Below are positions 5,397-33,170 of a stretch of DNA of 35,768 bases, piece by piece; position 1 is the stretch's first letter; every line of letters starts with the position of its first letter. Under the pieces are notes generated by a model that was not told the origin of the DNA, searched no databases, and was given only the letters and a program-made list of their open reading frames with translations. Position numbers and translations under genes: made by a program. The stretch covers positions 1 through 35,768 of the forward strand of contig JACRFJ010000014.1 of NCBI GenBank assembly GCA_016217935.1, read 5' to 3'. Origin of the DNA: Candidatus Kaiserbacteria bacterium (lineage in GTDB: Bacteria > Patescibacteriota > Minisyncoccia > Phycocordibacterales > UBA2100).

Positions 5397-5487
5397 GCCA
5401 AAAATGGCTTAAAAACCGCATAATATCCCCACTGTATCCACACGCTTTCCACAGGGATACCCCAATAGGGCTCTACGCCTGGATTAT

Positions 5488-5516
5488 TTGACTTCCGCTT
5501 TTGAAAAGAATATACT
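5488..5516 (+). promoter_or_regulatory. Promoter of the 23S-5S unit
   Basis: TTGACT (5488-5493), 17-bp spacer, TATACT (5511-5516). The same hexamers with a 16-bp spacer precede the 16S gene at 33819-33846, so the two separated rRNA units appear to share a promoter type. Confidence 0.85.
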
Positions 5517-5522
5517 CACCGT

Positions 5523-5952
5523 ACATATATGAGTATCGGAATGAGAACCAAAACGCGTCAGCCGTAAATGGTGGGGCAACCCACATACACGACTGACCGC
5601 GAAAGCGGTCTTTTTCTTTCGAAAAATTATATGTTGCTCGTTGACATACGAAGAGCGACAAAGAAACCCGACACACTCGTAAAGTGTGTGCCGGGCGAAT
5701 CCGTCACACGCTTTTGGCGTGTGTCGGAAATCAAAGAATCAAAACGTTTCGATCAGGTTCTCCCTCAGACCTAAAAATCAGGGGAGGTCTTTCCTGATCG
5801 GAATGCAGGAAAATTGGTCCGCAGGTATGCGGACCGAGCAAAAGAAAAAGTCTCGTCTCTCTTGTAGGAGACGAGCAGAAAGCAGATTCGTCACATGCGC
5901 AGCGGTGCATATGTGATGGATCGAAATACGCGGTTCTCAGAATTCCTTACGG
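5523..5952 (+). promoter_or_regulatory. Structured leader of pre-23S rRNA
   Basis: About 430 nt between the predicted start and 23S, containing no convincing gene but a dense series of hairpins: GTGGG/CCCAC (5571-5584), GACCGC-GAAA-GCGGTC (5595-5610), GACACAC/GTGTGT, CACACG/CGTGTG, a long ATCAGG/CCTGAT arm, GGTCCGCA/TGCGGACC, and CTCGTCTC/GAGACGAG. The last part, AATTCCTT...GAGTTCTG, pairs with the 3' flank of 23S to make the processing stem. Confidence 0.6.
5595..5619 (+). terminator. Terminator-like hairpin inside the rRNA leader
   Basis: GACCGC-GAAA-GCGGTC is followed directly by TTTTTCTTT. It lies between the 23S promoter and the 23S gene, so it would attenuate rRNA transcription unless antitermination operates. 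Confidence 0.65.
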
Positions 5953-6229
5953 GAGTTCTGAGTAAGGGCGTGTGGTGGATGCCTAGACTGAAGAAGGCGA
6001 TGAAGGACGCGGCTTAGCTGCGATATGCTTCGGGGAGGTGCTCAGCAACCTTCGATCCGGAGATTTCCGAATGGGGAAACCCCATTGAGTAAACCTCAAT
6101 GACTTCTCACTTAAACGATGAGAAGAGCGTACCTCGGGAAGTGAAACATCTCAGTACCGAGAGGAAAAGAGAACAATAGTTACTCCCTTAGTAGCGGCGA
6201 GCGAAACGGGAAGAGCCCAAACTCAGCCT

Positions 6230-6307
6230 CAAAATTTGCATTCATGGATTCCCAAGGTCGGACCTTGGGGATTCTAAAGGTCCGACCTTGAATGAATTCA
6301 AATTTTG
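6230..6307 (+). other. Expanded rRNA helix with tandem palindromes
   Basis: CAAAATTTG (6230-6238) pairs with CAAATTTTG (6299-6307) and encloses two near-identical 13-bp palindromes, AAGGTCGGACCTT and AAGGTCCGACCTT. This lies in domain I of 23S, where bacterial rRNA is length-variable; I read it as an rRNA expansion, not a gene. Confidence 0.6.
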
Positions 6308-6538
6308 GGTATGGGGGTTATAAGGCTACGGCGATGCCCCAATTAATTTTGGATTGGCAGATGGAGTTACAAAATGCTTAGTTAGTGGAACGAGCTGGGA
6401 AGCTCGACCCCAGAGGGTAATAGTCCCGTACACGAAAACGAAGCATCTCTATGGCTGTAGTTCTTGAGTATCTCGAGACATGAATAGCTCGGGTGAATTT
6501 GCCAGGACTAACTGGTAAGGCTACATACTTCTTCAGAT

Positions 6539-6581
<43 letters not shown>

Positions 6582-6644
6582 GGTGAGGGGAGTGAAATAG
6601 AACTGAAACCACATGTCTACAAGGAGTCGAAGAGGTTCACCATT

Positions 6645-6910
6645 TTGGGTGGTATCTTTTTAGGTATGTATTATGTGTATATTCTTCAAAGCACTACGAA
6701 GCCGAAAATGTATATCGGATACAGTGCCGACTTGAAGTCACGCATCGCTCGCCACAATGATGGGGGTGTGCAATCCACAAAATATTATCGACCCTGGAGT
6801 TTGTTGTATTACGAAGCATATTCGAGCGATGCGCTTGCGCACAGTCGAGAAAAAGCTTTGAAGAACAAAGGAAAAGGGTGGATAGAACTTAAGAAGCGGA
6901 TAGTGCCTAG
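6645..6910 (+). mobile_element. ORF-bearing intervening sequence in 23S helix 25
   Basis: The insertion is closed by a perfect 13-bp stem, GAGGTTCACCATT (6632-6644) with AATGGTGAACCTC (6911-6923). Flanking sequence matches the helix 25 region of E. coli 23S, a classical site of intervening sequences that are excised by RNase III without religation. No group I core (P/Q/R/S) is present, and almost the whole insertion is the GIY-YIG ORF. Confidence 0.75.
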
Positions 6911-6947
6911 AATGGTGAACCTCGACGGCGTGCCTATTGAAGAATGA
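6666..6947 (+). CDS. GIY-YIG endonuclease encoded inside 23S rRNA
   Basis: A 93-residue single-domain GIY-YIG nuclease. The N-terminal YVYILQS strand, MYIGYSADLKSRIARHN (YIG motif and catalytic Arg), RPWSLLYYEAY and the EKALK helix carrying the catalytic Glu are all present. It resembles small UvrC-N-like (YhbQ/UPF0213-type) proteins rather than large intron endonucleases. The last 12 or so codons, including the TGA, are read from the conserved 3' strand of helix 25, so coding sequence and rRNA overlap. No ribosome-binding site is obvious. Plausibly it promotes spread of the insertion, but this type is not an established rRNA homing enzyme. Confidence 0.8.
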   Translation: MYYVYILQSTTKPKMYIGYSADLKSRIARHNDGGVQSTKYYRPWSLLYYEAYSSDALAHSREKALKNKGKGWIELKKRIVPRMVNLDGVPIEE

Positions 6948-7559
6948 GCCAACGAGTTGATGCATACGGCTTGGCTAAGCCCTATCGGGTGGAGCCGCAG
7001 CGAAAGCGAGTGTGAATAGCGCGTAAAGTCCTGAGAGCAATCGAAGGATTTGTCGTATGTATCAGACCCGAAGCCGGGTGAGCTACCCATGAGCAGGATG
7101 AACCACATAGAAATATGTGGGGAGGTCCGAACCCGTAGATTGTGCAACATCTTGGGATGACTTGTGGGTTGGAGTGAAAAGCTTATCGAACTCGGTAATA
7201 GCTGGTTTTCTCCGAAAGAGCTTTCGGGCTTGCGTCGCATGTTTCTGTAGGGGGTAGAGCACTGGAAGGTTCGGATAGGCCGCAAGGCCACTGAACCTAT
7301 CAAACTCCGAATACCTACAGCCAGAATGCGGCAGTTAGACGGTGGGGGCGAAGCTCCACTCGTCAAAAGGGAAACAGCCCAGACCGCCAGTTAAGGTCCC
7401 TAAATCCATACTAAGTGCAAGCAAGGAGGTGAAATTTCACAGACAGTGAGGATGTTGGCTTAGAAGCAGCCACCATTCAAAGAAAGCGTAACAGCTCACT
7501 CACTCAGAGATTTCGCGCCACAAATGATCGGGGCTAAGTATGGTACCGAAGCTGCGGAT

Positions 7560-7650
7560 CCTTCGATTCGACACTGCGTGTCTCACTCAGGACAAGTTCG
7601 CGAACTTCGCGAGCCTGCCCTGAGCGAGGTACTTGGTACCGAGTCGAAGG
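7560..7650 (+). repeat. Hairpin insertion in 23S helix 45
   Basis: CCTTCGATTCG (7560-7570) pairs with CGAGTCGAAGG (7640-7650), one mismatch. Inside lies CTCACTCAGG...CCTGAGCGAG, related to the dispersed TTCGAC..CTCAGG repeat. The flanks (GAAGCTGCGG and GGTAGGAGAACGTTC) match E. coli helix 45, the second classical site of 23S intervening sequences. Confidence 0.7.
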
Positions 7651-8371
7651 GTGGTAGGAGAACGTTCCGTTCGCGATGAAGCCAAAGAGGTGACTCATGG
7701 TGGAGCATACGGAAGTGAAAATGTTGGCACGAGTAACCGCAATGCGAGTGAGATTCTCGCACGCCGAAAGAACAAGGTTTCCTTCGCAATGGAGATCATC
7801 GAAGGGTTAGTCGGTCCTAACAGTATGGCGAATGCCGGACTGGATGGACATAGGGTTAATATTCCCTAACTTGTGTAGTGTGCGATGGAGGGACGGAGTG
7901 CTGTACCTCGGGCCCATTATTGGTTTTGGGTTCGGGCCGTGATTGTGTGCTGTAGGTAAATCCGCAGCATAATCGAGAGCGGCAGGGATATGTAGAGGCC
8001 TCGGCCAAAGCAGATTCGAGAGAGCGCGCTTCCAAGAAAAACTTCTAAGCTTCAACATTACTCAAACCGTACCGCAAACCGACACAGGTGTTCAGGGCGA
8101 GTAGCCCAAGGCGAACGAGTGAGAGATCCCCAAGGAACTCGGCAAAAAAGCGACCGTACGTTAGCAATAAGGTCCGCCACCGTAAGGTGGCCGCAGTTAA
8201 AATTTCCCAGGCGACTGTTTACCAAAAACACAGCTCCCTGCAAACTCGTAAGAGGAAGTATAGGGGGTGATGCCTGACCAATGCCGGAAGGTCAAGTATG
8301 GAGGGTACATGCATTTATGCATGTGCTGGACTATATAAGCCCCGGTCAATGTCGGCGATAACTATAATCGT

Positions 8372-9153
8372 GAACTCGCTACGCTCCGCAAGGAGTCAAG
8401 AGTAGGGCGATTGTAAAATTCGGCTATTTGCTGGAACATCCGAGTATCTAACAGTACCGTGAAGGTAACAATCTGTTAGTGCGGACAATCAGCAGGAAAG
8501 GCCAATACAGCGTGTGCTCACGCAATAACATTGCGCATGAATCACACAACTCAGGAACTACTCAAACAATTTCACGGAAAGCGAACACTGCTCAATTATT
8601 TTGTGGCGGGGTTCGTGGACGGGGAAGGAAGTTTTAGTGTAGCAATCCTCAAACATCCAAAGAAAGAAAACGAATGGATTATTAACCCGTGTTTTCAGGT
8701 GTATCAGCATCAAAAACACAGGGAGATTCTGGAAATTTGCCAAGAAGTGTTTGGCACCGGAAGCATTTACCGCAAGAGTGGTGTGCATCCGGTACTCAAC
8801 TTCAGCATCGACTCAACGAGAAATATAATCGAACGGGTAATACCGTTTTTCGATCGATATCCGCTCGTGACGAAACAAGAAGCTTACAGGATATTTCGGG
8901 AAATTGTTCTTGCGATGAAAAATCGCGAACATTTCACGAAAGAAGGATTCGTCCGTCTTGTACGACTTGCTTACTCCATGAATCAACAGGGTAAAGGGAG
9001 ACGGCGAACTCTTGAAGAGATCGTCGGCAAACTTCCACCCGACGCTGTATTGGAATCCTCAGAGACTTTACGCCGAACTCGCACTAAGTGAGCTGCGAGA
9101 TGATAAAGTCCAATCCTTATGGCGACATGAGGGGCTCCGATAAAATCGGAATG
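8372..9153 (+). mobile_element. Group I intron, 23S site 1923
   Basis: The exons ACTATAATCGT and CCTAAGGTAGCG join to match E. coli 1912-1934 in length. P1 is AATCGT (exon, to 8371) with GCGATT, giving the usual U.G at the splice site. Core elements: P strand TTTGCTGG, Q AATCAGCAGG (about 8489), R TCAGAGACTTTA (about 9059), S GATAAAGTCC (about 9101). It ends with a CCGAT-aaa-ATCGG hairpin and terminal G. The LAGLIDADG ORF lies between Q and R (P6 region). Confidence 0.88.
8537..9091 (+). CDS. LAGLIDADG homing endonuclease (I-CreI-like, single motif)
   Basis: 184 residues with one LAGLIDADG motif, YFVAGFVDGEGSF (about residues 20-32), so it should act as a homodimer. The order of I-CreI features is kept: CFQVYQHQKHREIL after the motif, GTGSIYRKSG, the I-type core NFSIDSTRNIIERVIPFFDRYPL, and a KQEAYRIF helix. 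It is expected to cut the intronless 23S allele around position 1923 and drive intron homing. The C-terminal dozen residues are encoded by the R strand of the ribozyme core. The ATG at 8537 has no good Shine-Dalgarno; a TTG at 8531 is also possible. Confidence 0.88.
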   Translation: MNHTTQELLKQFHGKRTLLNYFVAGFVDGEGSFSVAILKHPKKENEWIINPCFQVYQHQKHREILEICQEVFGTGSIYRKSGVHPVLNFSIDSTRNIIERVIPFFDRYPLVTKQEAYRIFREIVLAMKNREHFTKEGFVRLVRLAYSMNQQGKGRRRTLEEIVGKLPPDAVLESSETLRRTRTK

Positions 9154-9181
9154 CCTAAGGTAGCGAAATTCCTTGTCTGGT

Positions 9182-9651
9182 AACTGGATTGCCAGCTTCG
9201 GGAGTGATCCCGATGAAAAATTCGGCTTATAACGGTGGAGTCTTAACCTGAGCGCTTCAGACGAGGCGCGTCGATGGAAAGATAATACCGTGGGAAGTTT
9301 GTGAACTTCAGTAGGTGAAATTGTTCATGTTCAACGAAGAGGAGAACGAGATGTACTACATCCTCATGGCATTGCCGATCGTGCTTTTGATCGGACTGGT
9401 CGTTTTGCTGAACAATTAAGACCAGCAAATCGATCTGCCGGGCAAGCTCCGTCGCGGAGACGAGGCTTGCCCCCTACTGAAGTTCACAAACCCCGTAACG
9501 ACTTAGCGCACACGCGCTAGAGTGTTTGCTTCGAGCAAACGCTAACACGCCGGCTCTCATTCAAAAGAATGAGATGAAGATATAGTCTAATGCCCGTAGA
9601 AATACGGGGAGAGTGTAGCAATCGCGCGATTGTTACGATCAAACTCAATTG
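9182..9651 (+). mobile_element. Group I intron, 23S site 1951
   Basis: Exon 1 CTTGTCTGGT ends at 9181 and exon 2 starts AAGTTCAGACG at 9652, matching E. coli CTTGTCGGGT/AAGTTCCGACC. P1 is CTGGT (9177-9181) with GCCAG (9191-9195), U.G at the site. S is AAGATATAGTCT (about 9575). Between Q and R lies a long P6 extension with perfect 19-bp arms (9297-9315 with 9473-9491) holding a small ORF. No homing endonuclease is present. Confidence 0.88.
9351..9419 (+). CDS. Micro-ORF: 22-residue hydrophobic peptide in the intron P6 loop
   Basis: ATG 9351 follows AGGAG (9340-9344) by 6 nt, an ideal Shine-Dalgarno spacing. The peptide is MYYILMALPIV followed by LLIGLVVLLNN: one probable transmembrane segment with almost no charge. 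An in-frame ATG at 9327 would add MFNEEENE. It occupies the loop of the P6 extension, the position used for the endonuclease ORF in the neighbouring 1923 intron. Translation is unproven; the hydrophobic composition and Shine-Dalgarno are the only support. Confidence 0.45.
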   Translation: MYYILMALPIVLLIGLVVLLNN

Positions 9652-9960
9652 AAGTTCAGACGCGCACGAATGGTATAACGACTTGGGAACTGTCTCGGGG
9701 ATTTGCTCGGTGAAAATACAAGGGCGGTGAAGATGCCGCCTTCCTGCAGCTAGACGAAAAGACCCCAGAAGCTTTACTGTAATTTGGTATTGGGATTACG
9801 GGTGCACTGCGTAGCGTAGGTGGGAGGATTTGAAGCGCTGTTTTCGGATGGCGTGGATCCGCCAATGCAACACCACCCTGTGTTTCTGTAATTTCTAACT
9901 CTCTCTGAGAAACAGAGAGAAGACAGTACCTGATGGACAGTTTCGGTGGGGCGCTGTCCT

Positions 9961-10950
9961 TGAGCGCCAAAGGCTGTTTATCCGCAGCTGGAAAACAAAT
10001 GGGGGACCCGATGCGGCAACGCACCGGTGCACATCCGACTATATGCTGGAACACCCGCGCATGTTTGAATACTCGCAAGAGTGAAAATTTCAAACCGATG
10101 CGGACAATCAGCAGGGAAGATTTGTGAACTTCAGCGAGGAGAGGAGCGCAAAAAATGTTAACGCGCTTGACTGCGGTCCGGAAGCTTATTGCTTACCGCT
10201 CTTCCTCTCGCTGAAGTTCACAAAAACCCTCAGAGACTACATGTCGGATCACCAGGTAAAATAGGTGAAAGATATAGTCCGATCTTATTGGCGACAATAA
10301 GTGTCGAAAGACAATCAACATGAACACAAAAGAAATTCGAGAACATAAGCTCGGGTTGAAGCTGACCGATCGCCAGCGTGCGATTATTGTCGGACTTCTT
10401 CTCGGAGATGGTCATCTCGAAACGCAAAACAACACCAGAACATATCGGCTTAAAGTCGAACATGGCTCTGCGCAGTCGGATTACGTACACTGGCTCTTCC
10501 AAGAGCTTCGTGAATGGATCCCCTCCGATAAGCCATATGTGAAGGTTCGTAAAGATGGCGTCCAAAACGTCGGATTTACAACATATTCACATGGGGTTTT
10601 GCGTTTCTATGGCCAACAGTTCTACGAAGGCAAGCGGAAGCGCATGCCTAAAATCATCGGAAAAATGATTGAGCCGATTAGTGTTGCGGTGTGGTTTATG
10701 GACGATGGTTCGCGCAAATCTGCACGACACCTTTGTTACATAATTCACACGCTCGGGTTTTCAAAGACGGACTTGGAGTTTGCCCAAAATGCGCTCCGAT
10801 CTCGATTTGGAATCCACACGATACAACATCGGCAAAAAGGAAAGTATTGGAGATTATATATTCCTTCAGACTCAGCGAGGCAATTCGAATCCTTGATCGA
10901 AGAATATATACGACCCATCGCTTCTCTGAAGCATAAGTTGGTAACAAATG
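9961..10950 (+). mobile_element. Group I intron, 23S site about 2262
   Basis: Exon 1 GGGGCGCTGTCCT (to 9960) and exon 2 CCTAAAAAGTAACGG (from 10951) join to match E. coli GGGGCGGTCTCCT/CCTAAAGAGTAACGG. Core: P TATGCTGG, Q AATCAGCAGG (about 10106), R CCTCAGAGACTAC (10228), S AAGATATAGTCC (10269). P6 carries an 18-bp perfect stem (10121-10138 with 10207-10224). The LAGLIDADG ORF is 3' of S, in the P9 region, and runs across the 3' splice site. Confidence 0.88.
10155..10214 (+). CDS. Micro-ORF: 19-residue basic peptide in the intron P6 loop
   Basis: ATG 10155 lies 8 nt after GAGGAG. The predicted peptide MLTRLTAVRKLIAYRSSSR is basic and could form an amphipathic helix; its TGA lies in the right arm of the P6 stem. 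It sits at the same structural position as the hydrophobic peptide of the 1951 intron but is unrelated in sequence. The purine run might instead be only part of the stem, so the call is tentative. Confidence 0.3.
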   Translation: MLTRLTAVRKLIAYRSSSR

Positions 10951-10955
10951 CCTAA
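10320..10955 (+). CDS. LAGLIDADG homing endonuclease (two motifs)
   Basis: 211 residues with two LAGLIDADG motifs, IIVGLLLGDGHLE (about residues 22-34) and SVAVWFMDDGSRK (about 122-134), so it should work as a monomer. The class resembles the LAGLIDADG_2 family (mitochondrial-intron and archaeal type), for example LRFYGQQFYEGKRKRMP and HTLGFSKTDLEFAQNAL. It probably cleaves the intronless 23S site near 2262. The final codons cross the 3' splice site: G10950 is the last intron base, and the stop TAA is exon sequence. Splicing therefore removes the stop codon from the ORF. Confidence 0.88.
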   Translation: MNTKEIREHKLGLKLTDRQRAIIVGLLLGDGHLETQNNTRTYRLKVEHGSAQSDYVHWLFQELREWIPSDKPYVKVRKDGVQNVGFTTYSHGVLRFYGQQFYEGKRKRMPKIIGKMIEPISVAVWFMDDGSRKSARHLCYIIHTLGFSKTDLEFAQNALRSRFGIHTIQHRQKGKYWRLYIPSDSARQFESLIEEYIRPIASLKHKLVTNA

Positions 10956-11224
10956 AAAGTAACGGAGGAGCCTATTATGGTCACCTAGGCGCGAATGGAA
11001 ACCGTGCCGATAGTGCATTGGCAAAAGGTGGCTTGACTGCGAGTCGTACATGACAAGCAGGCGCGAAAGCGGAGCAAAGTGAACCGACGATCTGCATTAG
11101 ATGCAATCGAAGATTAACGGATAAAAGTTACTCTGGGGATAACAGGCTGGTTTCGCCTAAGAGTCCAAATCGACGGCGAAGTTCGGCACCTCGATGTCGG
11201 CTCATCTCATCCCGGGGCTGGAGA

Positions 11225-11258
<34 letters not shown>

Positions 11259-11284
11259 AGGTACGTGAGCTGGGTTCAAACCGT

Positions 11285-11685
11285 TCAGCAACTCACGATG
11301 AGGTTAAACCTCATCGGTTGGGAGATTGAACGGTTTGAACCCCGAGGAAAAACGAACAATTAACGATTTCGTAAATCGTTATTTAGACATCATCACGGCG
11401 GCGATGCATAGCAATATGTATCGAGAAGCTGACTTATATCGGTAAAACCCGACGTGCAGTTTGCACGGGGCAATACCGAGGGAAGTTTGTGAACTTCATT
11501 GAGTGGATTTTGCTGTTTCCCCACTCAATGAAGTTCGCAAATGCCTGTAGAGACTGAATGTTAGCCATCCAGTAATGTAATGGATGAAGTTACAGTCCGA
11601 TCCTGCTAGTAATGGCAGTATGTCAAGGTGTCACCTTGACATTACCCTGGCGACTCAAAATGAGTCGCTCGTGGCTAACCTCATG
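11285..11685 (+). mobile_element. Group I intron without ORF, 23S site 2593
   Basis: Exons GGGTTCAAACCGT and CGTGAGACAGG match E. coli up to U2593 and from 2594, the site used by the chloroplast I-CreI intron. Core: Q CAATACCGAGG (about 11470), R TGTAGAGACTGAATG (11554), S AAGTTACAGTCC (11585). The P6 stem begins GTTTGTGAACTTCA as in the 1951 and 2262 introns but its loop is empty. A 16-bp complementarity spans the 5' splice site (GGGTTCAAACCGTTCA with 11323-11342). Confidence 0.85.
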
Positions 11686-12119
11686 CGTGAGACAGGTTGG
11701 TCTTAATCTGCTGTAGGCGTTGATTCTTGAGGAGATTCGTTTCTAGTACGAGAGGACCGAAATGAACGAACCTCTGGTCTGGGGGCTGTACCACCAGGTG
11801 CACCGCCCCGTAGCTATGTTCGGAATGGATAACCGCTGAAAGCATCTAAGCGGGAAACCAACTCCAAGATAAGGAATCGTTTGAGGGTCGTGGGAGATGA
11901 CCACGTTGATAGGCACCAGGTGGAAGCACAGCAATGTGTTGAGCCGAGGTGTACTAATACCCCGACAGAACTCTCGAAAGGAATTGTGGGAGTCGCGTTA
12001 CGCTTTCTACACATTCTTTGATTAATCTTTGTCGCTCTTCGTAGTCAACGAGAAGAGCTGTTTGAAAATTGTGTGTTGGTGGTTTGGCGATGGGGTGAGG
12101 CGCGAGTACGCGCAGCGCC

Positions 12120-12181
12120 GCAAGGCCGGAGCATCGACGGATGCGAGGCGGGGTCGCGCAAAATCGCTCCAGCGATTTATG
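12120..12181 (+). repeat. Structured repeat, copy 1
   Basis: Shares GCAAGGCCGGAG, a 4-bp hairpin and CGAGGCGGGGTCGCGC with copy 2, ending in the hairpin AATCGCT-CC-AGCGATT. The central hairpin is CATC-GACG-GATG here but GCGC-GTCG-GCGC in copy 2, so pairing is kept while sequence changes. It interrupts the outer 5S-like gene. Confidence 0.7.
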
Positions 12182-12220
12182 TGTGACACACCGTTCTTAC
12201 GTCCATGAATTTTGTTTTTT

Positions 12221-12329
12221 GTCCTGGTGATTCGTCGGAGGGGTCACACCCGTTCTCATTCCGAACACGGCAGTTAAGCCCTCTTGAGGCGATGGTAGTC
12301 GAAAGGCGAGAGTAGCTAGTCGCCAGGAC
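12221..12329 (+). rRNA. 5S ribosomal RNA
   Basis: About 109 nt with the 5S core CACACCCGTTCTCATTCCG-AACAC and GCAGTTAAGCCC, loop E/helix IV region GGCGATGGTAGTCGAAAGGCGAGAGTAG (split motif), and helix I GTCCTGG/CCAGGAC. The helix extends outward through TTTTGTTTTTT/AAAAAACAAAA to about 19 bp, a good processing stem. Confidence 0.9.
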
Positions 12330-12463
12330 AAAAAACAAAATTGCGCCTCTCACACCACCCGTCCTCATTCCGTCAACAGTCAACTTGGGCAGTTAAGCCC
12401 ATCTGCGCCGATGGTAGTCGAAAGGCGAGAGTAGGTCGCCGCCAACACACAGTTTTCAAACTC

Positions 12464-12591
12464 CAGCTGAGGTAGTCGAAAGGTGAGAAGCGAAGCTTCG
12501 CAAGGCCGGAGGCGCGTCGGCGCCGAGGCGGGGTCGCGCAAAATCGCTCCAGCGATTTATGCGTGACAGAGAGCTAGGCGCCAGAACAAAA
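12464..12591 (+). pseudogene. 5S-like 3' fragment interrupted by a repeat
   Basis: GAGGTAGTCGAAAGGTGAG and AGAGCTAGGCGCCAGAACAAAATT resemble the 3' third of the 5S gene and its flank, but are separated by copy 2 of the structured repeat. No matching 5' half was found. Confidence 0.5.
12500..12561 (+). repeat. Structured repeat, copy 2
   Basis: Identical in plan and spacing to copy 1 (12120-12181), preceded by the palindrome GCGAAGCTTCGC. The variable 12-nt hairpin differs but stays paired. Confidence 0.7.
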
Positions 12592-12636
12592 TTTTTAACA
12601 CAATAGCTCAGTCCGCATATCTCGCTAAAAAGGGAA

Positions 12637-12661
12637 CCCCAGTAAAATCCGGGGCTTTTTT
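12637..12661 (+). terminator. Terminator of the 23S-5S unit
   Basis: CCCC-agtaaaatcc-GGGG then CTTTTTT; A residues before the stem make it usable in the reverse direction for the gene at 12683-12988 too. Confidence 0.7.
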
Positions 12662-12682
12662 ATTGACGATGCGTCGTCACCC

Positions 12683-12988
12683 TTATCTTTCGAGCGTAAA
12701 GAGCAGGCCCGCGTCGCGCAATCTTGTAAACTGCGCGTTTGACGGAGCCTCCATCTCGCCGAACGCATTGCCACCAAGCGTTCGACAGTGCATGAGTCGT
12801 CCAACAGGGTTCCCGTCTGAGCGCGAGATGACGAGGAGATCATCTCCACTGAACAGAAGGCCAGTGTTGTCATTGATTCTCATAGCTCTGTCCCAGTTGA
12901 CGACAGTTCCCCGATTGCCGACAGATTGATAGTCGTGCGGGCGGCGGAACGATTGCAAAATGCGGAATACTTGAAGCGTACGGGGCAT
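12683..12988 (-). CDS. Hypothetical protein, 101 aa
   Basis: I do not recognise a family. Support for a real gene is the start: on the minus strand AGGAGG precedes the ATG at 12988 by 7 nt, one of the best Shine-Dalgarno sites here. The protein is soluble-looking, with a basic N-terminus (MPRTLQVFRILQSFRRPHDY) and a mixed C-terminal half containing GLLFSGDDLLVISRSDGNPVG. It lies between the rRNA terminator and a divergent membrane-anchored protein. Confidence 0.55.
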   Translation of the reverse strand: MPRTLQVFRILQSFRRPHDYQSVGNRGTVVNWDRAMRINDNTGLLFSGDDLLVISRSDGNPVGRLMHCRTLGGNAFGEMEAPSNAQFTRLRDAGLLFTLER

Positions 12989-13023
12989 CGGTTATCCTCC
13001 TGCTGAAGACATCATTCTCTTTT

Positions 13024-20709: not shown

Positions 20710-21621
20710 ATGTACATCGTCACACATCGAAATGTGTTCTTCTGCGCAACGGGTGCACTCGTTGTCGCCTCGCTCGTAGCACTTTTTGCATTCGGATTGC
20801 ATCTCGGACTCGATTTCACGGGAGGAACGCTTGTCCAAGTCGCGTATCCGAGCGAACGACCTGCCTCGAATCTGGTCGCTGAAGCGCTCGATGGGTCGGG
20901 CATCAAAAACTATTCCATCCGCGAAGCGGGGACGAGCGATTACATTGTTCGTGCACCGAATTTATCTGAATTGCAACGATCCTCAATCGCTGAGGTCGTC
21001 TCAGGCGGGGAGCGCTATCGCGGGCAGATTACGCAGCTTACTGAGGTTGGGCCGACAATCGGTACAGAACTTCGTAATAAATCAATCATCGCCCTCGGCC
21101 TCGTCCTTCTGTGCATCCTTCTTTTCATCGCGTTTGCATTCCGCAAGGTCTCAAAACCTGTGTCGAGCTGGATCTATGGGCTCATCGCGCTCGTGACCCT
21201 CATCCACGACGTCATCGTGCCACTCGGGTTTTTTGCCTTCCTCGGATATATCACGGGAGCACAAGTCGACACGCTTTTCGTGACGGCAATCCTTACAATT
21301 CTTGGCTTTTCGATCCACGACACGATCGTCGTTTTCGATCGTACGCGTGAGAATTTGCGGATCAACGACGAGCGGGGTCGGAGAGAAGATTTTGCCGATA
21401 CCGCAGGTCGTTCACTCGGACAGACCTTTGTTCGATCGATCAACACATCACTCACCGTGCTCATCACGCTCTCTGTTCTCTACTTCATCGGTCCTGAATC
21501 AACGCGCGTATTTGCCCTTACACTCTTGGTCGGCATCATTGCGGGCACATACTCCTCCATCTTTTTGGCAACCCCACTTCTCGTTACAGTCGAAAAGTGG
21601 CGCAGTAGTCGCAAAAAATAG
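20710..21621 (+). CDS. secF: Protein translocase subunit SecF
   Basis: 303 residues. N-terminal TM, LGLDFTGGTLVQVAYP (SecF form of D1), a periplasmic stretch ending GPTIGTELRNKSI, and the C-terminal TM bundle with GFSIHDTIVVFDRTRENLR and TFVRSINTSLTVLITL. It forms the SecDF complex with the preceding gene. The last codons overlap the promoter of the tyrosine leader. Confidence 0.95.
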   Translation: MYIVTHRNVFFCATGALVVASLVALFAFGLHLGLDFTGGTLVQVAYPSERPASNLVAEALDGSGIKNYSIREAGTSDYIVRAPNLSELQRSSIAEVVSGGERYRGQITQLTEVGPTIGTELRNKSIIALGLVLLCILLFIAFAFRKVSKPVSSWIYGLIALVTLIHDVIVPLGFFAFLGYITGAQVDTLFVTAILTILGFSIHDTIVVFDRTRENLRINDERGRREDFADTAGRSLGQTFVRSINTSLTVLITLSVLYFIGPESTRVFALTLLVGIIAGTYSSIFLATPLLVTVEKWRSSRKK

Positions 21622-21625
21622 CCGA

Positions 21626-21654
21626 TTGACTGAGGAAAGCGACAGGTATACACT
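21626..21654 (+). promoter_or_regulatory. Promoter of the tyrosine leader/tyrA-like unit
   Basis: TTGACT (21626-21631), 17-bp spacer, TACACT (21649-21654). Predicted start about 21661, only a few nt before the leader-peptide ATG. Confidence 0.75.
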
Positions 21655-21660
21655 CTGCAA

Positions 21661-21764
21661 TACATGAAATTTGAAATTGCATATTATTGCGCTTATCGAA
21701 GCCCCCGGGAGTAGGCTCTTGCTACATTTCGTAAAAGAGACCAGGCCCCCGTACGGGGCTTTTT
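21661..21764 (+). promoter_or_regulatory. Tyrosine transcription attenuator
   Basis: A promoter, a Tyr-rich leader ORF and an intrinsic terminator GCCCC-CGTAC-GGGGC-TTTTT (21745-21764) precede a prephenate dehydrogenase gene. A competing antiterminator is possible: CGGG-agta-GGC (21706-21716) with GCCCCCG (21745-21751). A ribosome stalled at the Tyr codons would leave 21706-21716 free; one reaching the stop (21712-21714) would cover it and allow termination. Confidence 0.75.
21664..21714 (+). CDS. Leader peptide with three Tyr codons
   Basis: Sixteen residues, MKFEIAYYCAYRSPRE, with Tyr at 7, 8 and 11 and Phe at 3. It lies within 3 nt of the predicted transcription start, so it would be translated leaderlessly, and it ends inside the putative antiterminator strand. 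The role expected is sensing charged tRNA-Tyr for the tyrA-like gene downstream. Confidence 0.7.
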   Translation: MKFEIAYYCAYRSPRE

Positions 21765-21871
21765 CAGTGCTGGTGGCCTGATCTCGGCGTCTCGAAAGAC
21801 TTCGCAATCAGGTCAACAGATCTTTCATACGCTTGGGAATGACCTGATACCAAGCAACAGGGAGAAGTACG

Positions 21872-22672
21872 ATGCACGATACGACGGCTACCACACCCGC
21901 GATCACATGCCGTTCGATCGGCATCATCGGCGACGGACATTACGGGAGACTGCTCCGTAAGCTCATTCGGCGTTTTGCGCTCGACGTCAATGTACAGGTG
22001 CATGACAATTCGATCGACCCCGATGGACACACGTACGTTAGGCTGCGCGGACTCAGGAAATGTGACGCGGTTATTCTCGCTGTCCCGATGGACATCTTCG
22101 AGCAAGTCGTGAAAAACCTCCTTGCAGTCAACGGGCTGCGCGAAGATATGGTGCTCGTCAACGTGTGCTCGGATCAAGTGAAGTCGGGGGCCACGATCGC
22201 AGCACTTGCGGGGAAGCACCCATACATCTCCGCCCACAGCCCGTGGGGTCCTGATGCGTACCGAGATGTCAACGAAATCGTCTCGCTGCTGCCACCGATC
22301 GTACTGACGAAATGCACGCTTCCGCATCCGAATGACGAGGATCTCTTCTTCTTCATCCAGAACTGCGGATTCAAGATCGAGACTATGATGAGTGCCGAGG
22401 CGCATGATCGGAATCTCGCGGGGCGATGGATGTATTGCGCGCATCTGATCACGCAGATTCTGGGTCGCATGAAGTTGCTCGAAGAAGATTGCAGAGCGGC
22501 GCCGATCTCATATCAAAAGATCGTCGAAGGCGCACGGATGCTTCGCGACGACCGCGCCCTCTTCTTCACCCTCTGGGATCGTGTCCCCGAATGTCATGCG
22601 ACATTCGACGCGTTCATGGCAGCGGCTCACGGGCTCGCTGTCGATCGGCGCGAGCACATTAGCGGAAAGTAA
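21872..22672 (+). CDS. Prephenate/arogenate dehydrogenase-like protein (TyrA family)
   Basis: 266 residues. N-terminal Rossmann domain: SIGIIGDGHYGRLL (GxGxxG), CDAVILAVPMDIFEQVV, VNVCSDQVKSG (the 'SVK' position), and SAHSPWGPDA in place of HPMFGP. C-terminal helical domain: SAEAHDRNLAGRWMYCAHLITQIL, matching the conserved HDR..A..Q.L.H pattern. It would oxidise prephenate (or arogenate) to hydroxyphenylpyruvate (or Tyr). GGGAGAAG 6 nt before ATG 21872 is a good Shine-Dalgarno. Control by a Tyr attenuator agrees with the function. Sequence divergence leaves the exact substrate open. Confidence 0.8.
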   Translation: MHDTTATTPAITCRSIGIIGDGHYGRLLRKLIRRFALDVNVQVHDNSIDPDGHTYVRLRGLRKCDAVILAVPMDIFEQVVKNLLAVNGLREDMVLVNVCSDQVKSGATIAALAGKHPYISAHSPWGPDAYRDVNEIVSLLPPIVLTKCTLPHPNDEDLFFFIQNCGFKIETMMSAEAHDRNLAGRWMYCAHLITQILGRMKLLEEDCRAAPISYQKIVEGARMLRDDRALFFTLWDRVPECHATFDAFMAAAHGLAVDRREHISGK

Positions 22673-22907: not shown

Positions 22908-23480
22908 TCAGGTGCTTCGTGCGGTTTCGGCGAGAGCGCAGCCGAATCTATGGACGTTGTTCGGGAAGTGCTCCCAGCCCTGTTCAGCTGAGAACAGACG
23001 GTGTTCTCGCTTCACTCCTTCAGGAAGTCCGAAGAGGTCCATATGCCAAGCCCCATGCCATCCGCTCTCCAGTCCCGTGATCTGCAGACCGAACGATGCA
23101 ACGATCCGCGGAACGGCTTTCGTTCCCGAAACATATGCCGGATGCATATGAGCGGAATTGACGATGCACAGGGCGATCGGGATCGACAATTGACAGGCTA
23201 GCTCGATGGCGTATCGCTCGGCCTGTGCGACCCTCGTGCTTGGAAGCATGCTGGCTGGAGATGTGCAGAGCGCCAGCCATTTTGCTCCCTCGAGCGCCTG
23301 TCGAATTGCTTCGTGGGGGACAGGATCGATGATGCCGATCTCGCGAGTCAGATCTCTGACCTCGACGTACTCCAGAAGTGCTAGCTCGCTCATCAGCTGC
23401 CGAATCAGGACTGTTTCATGCGCGAGAAATACGACAGGATATTTGGTTTTTGTCGTTATCTCATCCGATCCGTTGAGCAT
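22908..23480 (-). CDS. Hypothetical protein, 190 aa
   Basis: Not recognised. Alternating hydrophobic strands and helices (YPVVFLAHETVLIRQL, KWLALCTSPASMLPSTRVAQAERYAIELACQLSIPIALCIV) suggest an alpha/beta fold, faintly like TIR or nucleoside deoxyribosyltransferase-type folds, but no catalytic motif can be assigned. The start is set by GGAGG 5 nt before the ATG at 23480 rather than the ATG at 23492. It has its own terminator and lies between the tyrA-like gene and trpS on the other strand. Confidence 0.65.
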   Translation of the reverse strand: MLNGSDEITTKTKYPVVFLAHETVLIRQLMSELALLEYVEVRDLTREIGIIDPVPHEAIRQALEGAKWLALCTSPASMLPSTRVAQAERYAIELACQLSIPIALCIVNSAHMHPAYVSGTKAVPRIVASFGLQITGLESGWHGAWHMDLFGLPEGVKREHRLFSAEQGWEHFPNNVHRFGCALAETARST

Positions 23481-23542
23481 GGATTCCTCCATCGGTTTGT
23501 CTTCGATTCGAAACTCACACGCAAGTTTTTAAAAGAGCTCTG

Positions 23543-23660
23543 GTGAGCTTTTTCAAAAGCTCACGCGACAGGTCGCACTTGCGGCCCGCGATATGGGTCC
23601 AAGGTTGGGCGCACATCGCGGGCTACAAACAGAAAGCCCCTCCGAGGAGGGGCTTGTCTT
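23543..23660 (+). ncRNA. Possible structured RNA ending in a terminator upstream of trpS
   Basis: Three hairpins in order: GTGAGCTTTT/AAAAGCTCAC (23543-23564), GCCCGCGAT/ATCGCGGGC (23584-23623), and terminator AAGCCCCTCC-GA-GGAGGGGCTT (23634-23655) followed by TGTCTTTCGTTTTT. It may be a short transcript or a trpS attenuator. No T-box motif and no Trp-rich leader ending before the terminator is visible. The remainder to 23840 holds an AAG/AAA-rich tract (23710-23731) and no gene I can support. Confidence 0.4.
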
Positions 23661-23840
23661 TCGTTTTTGCTTTGGTTAGCGCAACGCCACAGGCACCCTC
23701 CTCGGGAGACTAAAAAAGAAGAAAAAGAAGGCGCTGAAGAAGTTCATTGCCACGAAATATAGCCTGAATCGCATGCGTTGACAAGTACAGCTGGAAATGT
23801 AGTTTTATCCTAGGTCCACTGGCTAACGAAAGGGTTACCC

Positions 23841-24863
23841 ATGAGCGAGATCGTCCTCTCTGGAATTCGCGCGACCGGGAAGCTCCATTTCGGCAACCTC
23901 ATGGGTGCCGTGCAGCATTTCGTGCGGTTTCAAGGACGCGGCGATACGTGTCTGTTCTTCGTCGCGGACTTGCACACACTGACGACGCTTCAGGATCCTG
24001 ATGACATGCGTCGGAATCTCAGGGAAATTGTCAAGGACTATCTAGCTGCGGGTCTCGATCCACAGCAGTCAATCCTGTACGCGCAGTCGAGCGTCCCGGA
24101 GATTCCCGAACTCTCGTTGCTCCTCTCCATGCTGCAGCCGCTCGGCGACCTGCTCCGGATACCGACATTCAAGGAGAAGGTCCGGGGCCAGGACGAAAGC
24201 GCTACCCTCGGACTCGTCACATACCCTGTCTTAATGGCCGCCGACATCCTTGGTCCCAAGGCAACCCTGGTTCCGGTCGGCGAAGACCAGGTCCCGAATG
24301 TCGAACTCGCACGGCGGCTCGCGCATATCTTCAACGCGCGCTTCGGCGAAACCTTCGTCATTCCAAGCATGATGGACGAGATGGTGAAAGTGCCAGGCCT
24401 CGATGGCGCGAAGATGGGCAAGTCCGATGGCAACGCGATCGACATCAACGCCCCGATCTCCGAGATCAGTACGCTCTACAAGAAACGGGGCGTCACAGAT
24501 CCAAAGAAAGTTCGTGCGGGGGATCCCGGAAATCCATATCGGACTGTCGACATCGCCAAAGGGGTGGACGAAGGGTGTCGATCAGTCTACGCAGTCCACG
24601 AGCTCATCACGCCTGGCGAAAAGGAGGGACGGGAGATCGCGGACGAATGTCGCGCCGGTACGATCGGCTGTGCTGATTGCAAGGAGCGACTCGTCGGGAG
24701 TATCGCTGCAATTCTGGGGCCTTTCCAGGAGAAGCGTGCAGCGCTCGCGAACCAGGACGATTACGTGATCGACGTCTTGCATGAGGGTGGAAAGAGGGCT
24801 CGTGTGCTGATCGCGCCGACCGTCGAGGCCGTGAGGGAGAAAATGGGCGTGATCATATACTAG
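23841..24863 (+). CDS. trpS: Tryptophanyl-tRNA synthetase
   Basis: 340 residues, class Ic synthetase charging tRNA-Trp. Signatures: SGIRATGKLHFGN with the HIGH-equivalent HFGN, VADLHTLT, TYPVLMAADIL, the VGEDQVPNVELARRLA helix, and KMSKS-equivalent KMGKS in LDGAKMGKSDGNAI. AAAGGG precedes ATG 23841; a TTGACA lies at 23778-23783 with a poor -10. Being in an island of aromatic-amino-acid genes it could be the sole TrpRS or a second, regulatory or self-protection copy; the window cannot tell. Confidence 0.95.
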   Translation: MSEIVLSGIRATGKLHFGNLMGAVQHFVRFQGRGDTCLFFVADLHTLTTLQDPDDMRRNLREIVKDYLAAGLDPQQSILYAQSSVPEIPELSLLLSMLQPLGDLLRIPTFKEKVRGQDESATLGLVTYPVLMAADILGPKATLVPVGEDQVPNVELARRLAHIFNARFGETFVIPSMMDEMVKVPGLDGAKMGKSDGNAIDINAPISEISTLYKKRGVTDPKKVRAGDPGNPYRTVDIAKGVDEGCRSVYAVHELITPGEKEGREIADECRAGTIGCADCKERLVGSIAAILGPFQEKRAALANQDDYVIDVLHEGGKRARVLIAPTVEAVREKMGVIIY

Positions 24864-29978: not shown

Positions 29979-30262
29979 GGGTCACCTCCTGCGGTGTGTT
30001 GATGAATTTTCAGAGAGCAGAAAGATCTCGGTTTTTTGCTGGTAGGAGCCAACAAAAAACCGCCCGTATTCCACAAGCATATGCTCATGAGATAAGGGCG
30101 ATTTTCAGTCGCGGTACCACCTTAGTTGTTTCTCACCGACTCCGCAAGAGCGACATCGGTTTTCCTGATTACGGAGGAGTTCCGGATCACGACTTGCGCC
30201 GCGATCTCCTCACCGGCCCCAACCCCGCGTTGATGCGGGAACCGGTTCAATGGATTTACCTA
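29979..30262 (-). promoter_or_regulatory. T-box riboswitch 1 (dikinase leader)
   Basis: The minus strand carries AAGGTGGTACCGCGAC (30123-30108), the T-box sequence, then a terminator CGCCC...GGGCG (30100-30061) with a TTTTTT run. The 5' part has a short stem I (ACCGG/CCGGT with inner CCCGC/GCGGG) and a hairpin ATCGCG...CGTGAT also present, with compensating changes, in T-box 2. The UGGU bulge predicts a tRNA with discriminator A. The specifier is not certain: GUUGGG in the stem I loop allows UUG (Leu) or UGG (Trp). A second stem CGGTTTTTTG/CAAAAAACCG (30029-30062) overlaps the U run. Confidence 0.85.
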
Positions 30263-30296: not shown

Positions 30297-30383
30297 TATC
30301 GGAGTTTTTAGGCCTCTGGCATAGTGGGCGCGGTGGCTTTGGCACGAGGCCTAAAGCTGAGAATCCAACGAACGGGTGCGGCT

Positions 30384-31514
30384 ATGCCGACGTCAGATCT
30401 TGATCTGCTTGCTTTGGGCAAACGACTCCACATGGTGGACGACATCCTCGTGCAGATGCTCGCGGCGAGACATAAGCTCGCAGGGGAGGTTTCGCGATAC
30501 AAGCGCAAAAACGGGCTCCCTATCTATCGTCCCGATATCGAACGGAAGCGGATCGAAGAGGCATGCGCCTACGGCGCAAGGCTCGGTCTCACTCCCGAGT
30601 ACGTCAGCTCTATCATGTACGGCGTGATTCGCGAGGCATGCATGGATCAGGTGATCGACCGTGAGCGAAACGACGGTCCGATCCAGCCGCTGACCTACGA
30701 GCAGCAGAAAGCGAATCTGCTCGAGCTCACGTCGTCGATCGCGGGTACCTACGACGCGACCTACGCGATGCCGTATGCGACCCGCGTGCTTCATGATTAC
30801 GAGGACCAGCGTCTTGAGAATCTCATCCTCGAAATGCCACGTGGGCGGCGTGGGCGGTTTCTCGATCTGGGCTGCGGCACAGGGAAAATCGCATTTCGCG
30901 CCGCGTACATGTTCAAGAAGGTCGTCGGTTACGACCTGAGTGCGCCGATGCTTGCGGTGGCGCGCCAGAAACACGCATCGCGCCATGCGAATACCGATGT
31001 GAGCTTCGTAGAAACAGATCTGGACAATGGAATTCCAGAACCCGACGAGAGCGTGTCGTTTGTCGCAATGACGCTCGGCACCGGAAGCGATATCCGCGAG
31101 ATCGAGAATCTGGTCGAGGAGATACAGCGAGTTCTCGAACCCGAGGGGCGTTTCCTGGTATCGTTCTACAATGCGGGTGCACTGCTCTATGAGTGGCAGT
31201 ACGTGCCCTGGCAGTTGCCGCTCGCAGCCTGGATGAACATCGACGAGCACACCTTGGAGGTTCCGCACGCTGGCAAGACCTACCAGGTGTTTGCCCGCCC
31301 CCGTACGATCGACGAGGTGAAGGAGCTGTTCAGCTGGGCGTTGGCGGGTTCACTGGACGTTACGACATACCCCACAATTTTGCCCGTGATTCCAAACGAA
31401 GCATTTGTGGGGCAGCCAAGCGATCAGCTCGCACGGACGCTCGGTGATCTCGAAAAGCAACTCGCGCACGGACATCACGGCGCGTACGCGATCGTCGGTG
31501 GCCACAAGTATTGA
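30384..31514 (+). CDS. Chorismate mutase (AroQ) - SAM methyltransferase fusion
   Basis: 376 residues. Residues about 1-95 are an AroQ-type chorismate mutase: LGKRLHMVDDILVQMLAARHKLAGEVSRYK with the Arg and Lys positions, RPDIERKRIEEA (D..ER), and ending IREACMDQ with the terminal Gln. Residues about 115-376 are a class I methyltransferase: FLDLGCGTGKIAFRAA (motif I), VVGYDLSAPML (acidic ribose-binding loop), FVAMTLGTGS, and VLEPEGRFLVSFYNAG. Such a fusion suggests methylation of a chorismate/prephenate-derived compound. ATG 30384 is chosen; GTG 30324 would run through a 9-bp inverted repeat (30308-30354). It diverges from the T-box-controlled dikinase and ends at a strong terminator. Confidence 0.8.
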   Translation: MPTSDLDLLALGKRLHMVDDILVQMLAARHKLAGEVSRYKRKNGLPIYRPDIERKRIEEACAYGARLGLTPEYVSSIMYGVIREACMDQVIDRERNDGPIQPLTYEQQKANLLELTSSIAGTYDATYAMPYATRVLHDYEDQRLENLILEMPRGRRGRFLDLGCGTGKIAFRAAYMFKKVVGYDLSAPMLAVARQKHASRHANTDVSFVETDLDNGIPEPDESVSFVAMTLGTGSDIREIENLVEEIQRVLEPEGRFLVSFYNAGALLYEWQYVPWQLPLAAWMNIDEHTLEVPHAGKTYQVFARPRTIDEVKELFSWALAGSLDVTTYPTILPVIPNEAFVGQPSDQLARTLGDLEKQLAHGHHGAYAIVGGHKY

Positions 31515-32311: not shown

Positions 32312-32564
32312 CTCGTCTTCCTCCTTGTTGTAACAAAGATCGTTTGGGTCTTGCTCAAACGCAAAACCCGCCCTCGCAGCACAAAAATATTGTGCCGTAA
32401 GGGCGGGTTTCAAATTCCGCGGTGCCACCTTCTTTAGTCTCATCTCGTCCAATTGGACGGATTATCACTGTTACGGGCGAATCCCGGATCGCGACTTGTG
32501 CCGTGATCAGCCTCCCTGGCCCGAACCCGTGCCAATGCACGGAACCAGATCGCAGGCTTTTACT
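32312..32564 (-). promoter_or_regulatory. T-box riboswitch 2
   Basis: Minus strand AAGGTGGCACCGCGGA (32431-32416), followed by terminator AAACCCGCCCT...AGGGCGGGTTT (32410-32363). Short stem I CTGG/CCAG with inner CCGTGC-ATTG-GCACGG and loop strand GUUCGG (UUC Phe or CGG Arg possible). The hairpin ATCACG...CGCGAT corresponds to ATCGCG...CGTGAT of T-box 1. The UGGC bulge predicts a tRNA with discriminator G, unlike T-box 1. Confidence 0.85.
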
Positions 32565-32607: not shown

Positions 32608-32635
32608 TTGACAACGGAGCGCGACAGTATATTCT
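32608..32635 (+). promoter_or_regulatory. Promoter of a leaderless micro-ORF
   Basis: TTGACA (32608-32613), 16 bp, TATTCT (32630-32635). Predicted start about 32642, exactly the ATG of the 24-codon ORF. Confidence 0.6.
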
Positions 32636-32641
32636 CAAAAT

Positions 32642-32716
32642 ATGTCAGGCAAGCAGAATGTGAATCTCGTCTTCGGCCTCCTTACCACTTCTGGTGGAGG
32701 TTCTGCTTGTGTCTAG
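32642..32716 (+). CDS. Leaderless micro-ORF, 24 aa
   Basis: The peptide runs MSGKQNVNLVFG then LLTTSGGGSACV. It begins at the predicted transcription start and is followed by GTGTCT/AGACAC (32710-32737) and then a strong terminator, with a Shine-Dalgarno-led gene 75 bp beyond. The layout copies the tyrosine attenuator, so it may be a leader peptide; alternatively it is a small secreted or precursor peptide. No amino acid is clearly over-represented besides Gly/Ser. Confidence 0.4.
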   Translation: MSGKQNVNLVFGLLTTSGGGSACV

Positions 32717-32740: not shown

Positions 32741-32774
32741 CGAAGGCCCTTCACCCAAGAAGGGCCTTCGTTCT
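32741..32774. terminator. Terminator after the micro-ORF
   Basis: CGAAGGCCCTTC-accca-AGAAGGGCCTTCG then TTCTTT; a 12-bp stem. Confidence 0.75.
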
Positions 32775-32843
32775 TTATGTACCCCAGAGTTTCGTGAATA
32801 TCCGAATCACGGATGAAGGGACAGCAAATATGGAGGCGATGTG

Positions 32844-33170
32844 ATGGGGAAGCATGCGGCGAAACAGAAGGTCAATGGCACTGGCGTCGCGATTCCGCGT
32901 GGATTACCACGCACGATCTGTTCTATTCTCAATGAGCTCGAGAATGTCCAGCATGTGGTGGTGTGCGGAGCTACGCGTAATTACCAGGGTCGGGCAGCTG
33001 CGAACTTTGCGTGGAGACCCGAACCAAAAGGAGCTCTCGCGCTCTGCACCATTCGCGCCAAGGATCCAGACAATGGCGAGCGAGAGATCCGTGTGCGGGC
33101 GCGCAAGCTCGGCGCTGTTGTACGCATCCTCAAGAAGCGACTCTTCGCAGAGGGTGTTCATATCTCCTGA
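32844..33170 (+). CDS. Small basic hypothetical protein, 108 aa
   Basis: Unrecognised. Basic N-terminus (MGKHAAKQKVNGTGVAIPRG), a central ELENVQHVVVCGATRNYQGR, then REIRVRARKLGAVVRILKKR. GGAGG sits 7 nt before ATG 32844. Ends in an intrinsic terminator. Size and charge would suit a nucleic-acid-binding protein, which is only inference. Confidence 0.6.
   Translation: MGKHAAKQKVNGTGVAIPRGLPRTICSILNELENVQHVVVCGATRNYQGRAAANFAWRPEPKGALALCTIRAKDPDNGEREIRVRARKLGAVVRILKKRLFAEGVHIS

Follow-up and report, generated by a model that had tools for sequence, protein, structure and literature searches.

We conclude with high confidence, on comparative sequence grounds, that a short element between secF and a tyrA-like gene is a tyrosine-sensing transcription attenuator of the ribosome-mediated kind, with a leaderless leader peptide as its sensor, and that it belongs to a genus-wide set of such elements. 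The switch very probably turns on the downstream gene, which resembles a gene of the tyrosine pathway, when this ultra-small CPR bacterium runs short of tyrosine. The window analysed is a whole contig (C45) of 35,768 bp from a genome of 764 kb that is 94% complete. Among named records, its SecD protein best matches a metagenome-assembled genome (MAG) labelled only "bacterium" at 78%, followed by Candidatus Kaiserbacteria MAGs (Paceibacterota, CPR) at approximately 67–75%. Sequence, conservation, pairing, promoter geometry and the match between leader amino acid and downstream gene in relatives were computed. The features of the Tyr leader are as follows.

20791 to 21621, + strand: secF, the conserved neighbour upstream of the leader, also in relatives
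21626 to 21654, + strand: predicted promoter TTGACT-17-TACACT, from sequence; relatives have −10-like hexamers 6–10 nt before the ATG
21664 to 21714, + strand: putative leaderless leader peptide MKFEIAYYCAYRSPRE, 16 codons, with seven distinct homologues of 16 codons each
21700 to 21705, + strand: region 1, AGCCCC (Ser-Pro codons), possibly pairing with region 4 (fold) and invariant in five aligned Tyr leaders
21706 to 21720, + strand: region 2, CGGG and GGCUCUU, the 5′ half of the predicted antiterminator, overlapping codons 15–16 and the stop codon
21735 to 21751, + strand: region 3, the 3′ half of the predicted antiterminator (AAGAGACC...CCCG), overlapping the terminator 5′ arm
21743 to 21764, + strand: predicted intrinsic terminator (regions 3:4), AGGCCCC-CGTAC-GGGGCTT-TTT with a U-run, from sequence and structure prediction
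21872 to 22672, + strand: tyrA-like gene (prephenate dehydrogenase family, PDH_N match), with a Shine-Dalgarno-like GGGAGAA at 21860

The reading frame runs from the ATG at 21664 to the TAG at 21712–21714, and direct reading places its Tyr codons at 21682–21687 and 21694–21696 (codons 7, 8 and 11). The three Tyr residues in 16 codons reported by a first-pass annotation of this DNA were thus confirmed by direct reading as well as by conservation in seven species. The promoter ends 9 nt upstream of the ATG and predicts a transcript start 0–3 nt upstream of it, in agreement with the claim that the leader begins at the predicted transcription start. The ATG lacks a Shine-Dalgarno sequence, and the tyrA-like open reading frame (ORF) downstream has one. 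Promoter geometry supports a leaderless start for the Tyr leader as well as for the Phe and Leu leaders described below. The intrinsic terminator and TyrA-family gene said to follow the leader were also found. The match of the TyrA-like ORF to PDH_N (E = 8e-6, 25.9 bits) lies just under the Pfam cut-off of 26.5, and the homologue L056 scores 49.8 bits. A first scan of genome contigs with TyrA as the query gave no match, and AlphaFold models obtained without alignments for the TyrA-like protein and the protein under the Phe leader were unusable (mean pLDDT of 41–42).

From these data we infer transcript start, translation, stalling, control of termination and TyrA activity. RNA polymerase would start at the AUG or no more than 3 nt away, and a ribosome would load at the 5′ end of the transcript, with no need of a Shine-Dalgarno sequence. 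With Tyr-tRNA plentiful, the ribosome would reach the stop codon and mask region 2, so that the GC terminator would form and transcription would stop before the tyrA-like gene. With Tyr-tRNA scarce, the ribosome would stall at codons 7–11 and mask region 1, region 2 would pair with region 3, and the downstream gene would be transcribed past a terminator that does not form. Folding of the Tyr leaders with the ribosome halted on the Tyr codons predicted that the freed stretch, with the stop codon inside it, forms the antiterminator and takes up the terminator's 5′ arm; once the ribosome was placed at the stop codon, the terminator alone remained. In these predicted structures the terminator and antiterminator are mutually exclusive and a ribosome that has reached the stop codon covers the antiterminator, as had been proposed.

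We searched 52 genomes of the genus with the leader peptide and then with a covariance model trained on five copies of the element. The 101-nt element was present in 8 of the 52 genomes including our own (best E value of 4e-24; 1.8e-18 for the own copy), with copies outside the training set in G061 (4e-18) and G065 (3e-13). Reading of the matches confirmed seven distinct leaders in seven species, all of 16 codons and all directly after secF; a weaker second match in G061 and one match in G031 stand outside this confirmed set. The peptides are listed below.

Window: MKFEIAYYCAYRSPRE
G017: MHFQTTYTYAYRSPRG
G003: MNIGAAYYYGYLSPRG
G011: MNIGAAYYYDYRSPRG
G070 and the named record L195: MNIGATYYYAYLSPRG
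G061: MNIGAAYYYDYLSPKG
G065: MNFSATYYYTYRSPRG

All seven leaders have TAT at codons 7 and 11. Codon 8 is TAT or TAC but encodes Thr in the leader of G017. At codon 9 every leader has TAC apart from that of the window, in which a Cys codon leaves three Tyr rather than four. At the four Tyr positions of the seven leaders, pN was 0.08 versus a pS of 0.40. The check proposed by the first-pass annotation, alignment of relatives, showed Tyr codons kept in seven species with synonymous changes and, among the stems, re-pairing in one. The upper stem of the antiterminator is GGCUCUU/AAGAG-A-CC in the window and UCUGUC/GACAGA or UUUGUC/GACAGA in relatives, and is thus re-paired with different bases, whereas the terminator helix is nearly invariant among the Tyr leaders and so provides no covariation support. 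The antiterminator originally suggested, CGGG..GGC, captured the real CGGG/CCCG pairing of the lower stem (GGGGG/CCCCC in most relatives) but was incomplete, the predicted upper stem having been missed. Only the leaders of the window, G003 and G017 precede tyrA; the other four precede small or medium-sized ORFs of no known function. The genome of G017 has a Phe leader-pheA unit facing tyrA-Tyr leader-secF in convergent orientation, and the window mirrors this layout with another protein in place of pheA.

The other leaders identified are the following.

23756 to 23784, − strand: predicted promoter TTGTCA-17-TATATT of the Phe leader, from sequence
23676 to 23747, − strand: putative leaderless Phe leader MNFFSAFFFFFFSLPRRVPVALR, starting 8 nt after TATATT, with 8 of its first 12 codons encoding Phe
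23634 to 23655, − strand: predicted Phe-leader terminator, whose antiterminator partner CGAGGAGGG lies inside the peptide
22908 to 23492, − strand: protein under the Phe leader, in the position of pheA of G017; no family assigned and no relative found in the genus
32608 to 32716, + strand: predicted promoter TTGACA-16-TATTCT and putative leaderless Leu leader MSGKQNVNLVFGLLTTSGGGSACV (32642–32716)
32741 to 32770, + strand: predicted Leu-leader terminator; antiterminator GGTGGAGG/CCTTCACC, with the 5′ arm complementary to GGTGGAGG in the peptide
32841 to 33170, + strand: small protein under the Leu leader, no family assigned
30091 to 30259, − strand: T-box-like leader upstream of a PEP-synthase-like ORF (29978–27540), matched over its full length at 45.4 bits, E = 1e-7 (gathering score 93)
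32396 to 32562, − strand: second T-box-like leader, upstream of a 96-aa ORF (32311–32024) without assigned function, 32.3 bits (gathering score 93)
G000 contig C35, 154 to 322, + strand: third T-box-like leader, before a GCS2-like ORF, 29 bits (gathering score 93)

The Phe leader matched the Rfam family Phe_leader (RF01859) end to end at 40.7 bits, under the gathering score of 55. By eye, a UGG (Trp) specifier is possible in the T-box-like leader at 30259–30091, and sub-threshold T-box-like matches were found in 19 of the 41 genomes searched. Our genome thus carries Tyr, Phe and Leu leaders together with three T-box-like leaders, and most of the controlled genes have no known function. In 759.5 kb of this genome, no further convincing leader was detected beyond the Tyr, Phe and Leu leaders of the window; a looser scan gave 5 matches, compared with 4 and 6 in shuffled sequences, and was not significant by count. 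The candidate L290 was discarded as a chance match; in the relaxed scans of this genome the background equalled the signal. The peptide VISHAHSHSVRDL, before a protein of no known function (L300 8122, − strand), may be a His leader but is a lead only.

Approximately 50 leaderless leaders for at least six amino acids were collected in the genus, which therefore appears to use leaderless attenuators for Tyr, Phe, Leu, Ile, Val and Arg and perhaps for Met, Thr and His. The pattern TTGACA-N16-18-TANNNT-N4-9-ATGA occurs in 51 of the 52 genomes, compared with approximately 5 matches in all for a reversed-pattern control. Given that many of the matches are ordinary genes, leaderless genes seem to be common in the genus. 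Among 137 distinct sites that were read, 57 are ORFs of no more than 40 codons, and the majority of these are amino-acid-rich leaders that have a GC terminator. When 757 kb were scanned strictly for a leaderless leader plus terminator, 16 matches were returned, compared with zero for each of five shuffles and zero for the reversed sequence. The set excludes L106 and L154, short leaderless ORFs (approximately 30 codons) that overlap the downstream ATG; by eye, their stop codons overlap the start of an apparent carA, and translational coupling is possible.

According to Pfam, Val leaders precede ilvB (L114, L119), Leu leaders precede leuC (L118, L121) or leuA (L028), Phe leaders precede pheA (L054), DAHP synthase (L171) or aroQ (L152), and Arg leaders precede argC (L074) or, after an intervening ORF of no known function, argG (L133). 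Wherever the downstream gene was an identifiable biosynthetic gene, the leader amino acid was that of its pathway, with no mismatch seen in a reading that was not blind. The 3′ end of the peptide was complementary to the terminator arm in excess of shuffled sequences for 47 leaders (Fisher p of 2e-33, a value overstated by related copies). Folding of regions 2–3 in 49 leaders yielded a mean z of −4.2 relative to shuffles, and 92% pair at least 4 bases with the terminator arm. Leu and Ile leaders were also found in named records of Candidatus Taylorbacteria (L215, L251), so the device extends beyond a single genus. On contig C30 of G068, leaders rich in Ile/Val, Tyr and Met (L166, L167, L191) precede mutually similar proteins (blastp), and the Ile leaders (III) L126 and L170 precede small related proteins of no known family (26% identity, E = 2e-11).

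The terminator hairpin of the Tyr leader lies approximately 120 nt past the secF stop codon, a place where a terminator is expected, and it might simply terminate secDF, with the promoter and the Tyr-rich ORF present by coincidence. Given that the peptide, the promoter position and the antiterminator are conserved alongside the hairpin in seven species, and that two similar leaders of the window do not follow secF, we regard such a coincidence as extremely improbable. The leader RNA might instead respond to a metabolite, a protein or uncharged tRNA rather than to ribosome stalling. The T-box-like leaders in the same window suggest that RNA-based sensing of tRNA probably exists here. The T-box covariance model (RF00230), however, gave no match over positions 21500–21900, and the Tyr leader matches no Rfam family; conservation falls on a reading frame that contains Tyr codons, and across leaders codon identity follows the downstream pathway. 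A direct RNA response thus seems very unlikely.

The element could also be a decaying relic of an attenuator that once served tyrosine synthesis, with selection weakened here by loss of the pathway. Chorismate synthase was found by profile search of these incomplete genomes in 12 of the 52, but the seven genomes whose Tyr leader was confirmed by reading, our own included, gave no match, which makes tyrosine synthesis from chorismate doubtful in our genome. The window leader has Cys in place of one Tyr codon, and its antiterminator (regions 2–3, z of −2.2) is the weakest of the Tyr family. On the other hand, the promoter, the 16-codon length, three Tyr codons and both hairpins are retained, a C specific to the window at 21706 adds a CGGG/CCCG pair where region 2 has changed, and the adjacent Phe and Leu leaders are strong. 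We therefore consider decay unlikely and favour a working tyrosine attenuator.

Proteins of the LeuA type (HMGL-like) were found by profile search in 11 of the 52 genomes, and not in our own (94% complete). Together with the failure to find chorismate synthase and the position of four of the seven Tyr leaders before proteins of no known function, this suggests that the switches have partly outlived their pathways. They appear to persist in genomes that have lost the trunk pathway, where they would control either a remaining branch enzyme or a protein of no known function. The term "classical" in the first-pass annotation is accordingly only partly apt, given that chorismate synthase was not detected in our genome and that four of the seven Tyr leaders stand before genes other than tyrA. 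Tentatively, and with slightly less than even confidence, we suggest that in these CPR bacteria, which are probably host-dependent, the attenuators now act as starvation sensors that switch on uncharacterised proteins, possibly ones with which the cells obtain amino acids from a host or a neighbour. Elsewhere in the window, the ORF at 30324–31514 (+) fuses a type II chorismate mutase domain to a methyltransferase domain, in a genome without detected chorismate synthase. ORFs at 25966–24953 (−) and 23841–24863 (+) combine a weak indoleamine 2,3-dioxygenase-like match (E = 3e-5, under the cut-off) with an adjoining tRNA-synt_1b (Trp/Tyr-type) synthetase gene. Positions 5400–13000 contain few long ORFs, together with homing-endonuclease-like ORFs (8531–9091 and 10320–10955); by eye, this stretch may be an rRNA operon with introns.

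Mycobacterial polycysteine leaderless upstream ORFs are reportedly short, amino-acid-responsive attenuators, in that case for cysteine and in Actinobacteria. The enterobacterial Phe leader (RF01859) resembles that of the window in its Phe-rich peptide and terminator/antiterminator, but is led by a Shine-Dalgarno sequence and belongs to another taxon, the window leader scoring below the gathering threshold. According to PMC11857589 (citing Morbach 2000), the ilvBNC leader MTIIRLVVVTARRLP of C. glutamicum lacks a ribosome binding site and begins 1 nt from the start of the transcript, and it has a run of regulatory codons and translation-dependent attenuation that was tested by experiment. In its features, rather than by sequence, it is like the Tyr leader with its codon run and its predicted leaderless start and attenuation, but it comes from an actinobacterium with a full pathway and responds to Val, Ile and Leu rather than Tyr. 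In S. meliloti, a 14-aa leader peptide has its ATG at the very 5′ end of the trpL transcript (peTrpL/rnTrpL; PMC7298713). The transcript thus starts at the leader ATG, as predicted for the Tyr leader, but in an alphaproteobacterium, with Trp as the amino acid, and with an attenuated RNA and peptide that also act in trans.

Given these examples in Corynebacterium and rhizobia, the mechanism is of a known kind, and the novelty claimed for leaderless attenuation in CPR holds for the lineage, where it is apparently unreported in the open-licence literature searched, and not for the device. A search of the open-licence literature for attenuation, leader peptides and T-boxes in CPR, Patescibacteria or Parcubacteria retrieved nothing relevant. 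As far as that literature shows, what is new is the presence and extent of leaderless attenuation in CPR and its apparent retention after pathway loss.

CPR bacteria are usually described as poor in regulation and in amino acid synthesis. Our results suggest that at least part of this group has a broad regulon of amino-acid-specific attenuators that depends on leaderless translation. Given that the regulating codon names the signal, function becomes testable for CPR proteins of no known function, and those that would be induced on exhaustion of tyrosine, phenylalanine or leucine are candidates for how these cells feed.
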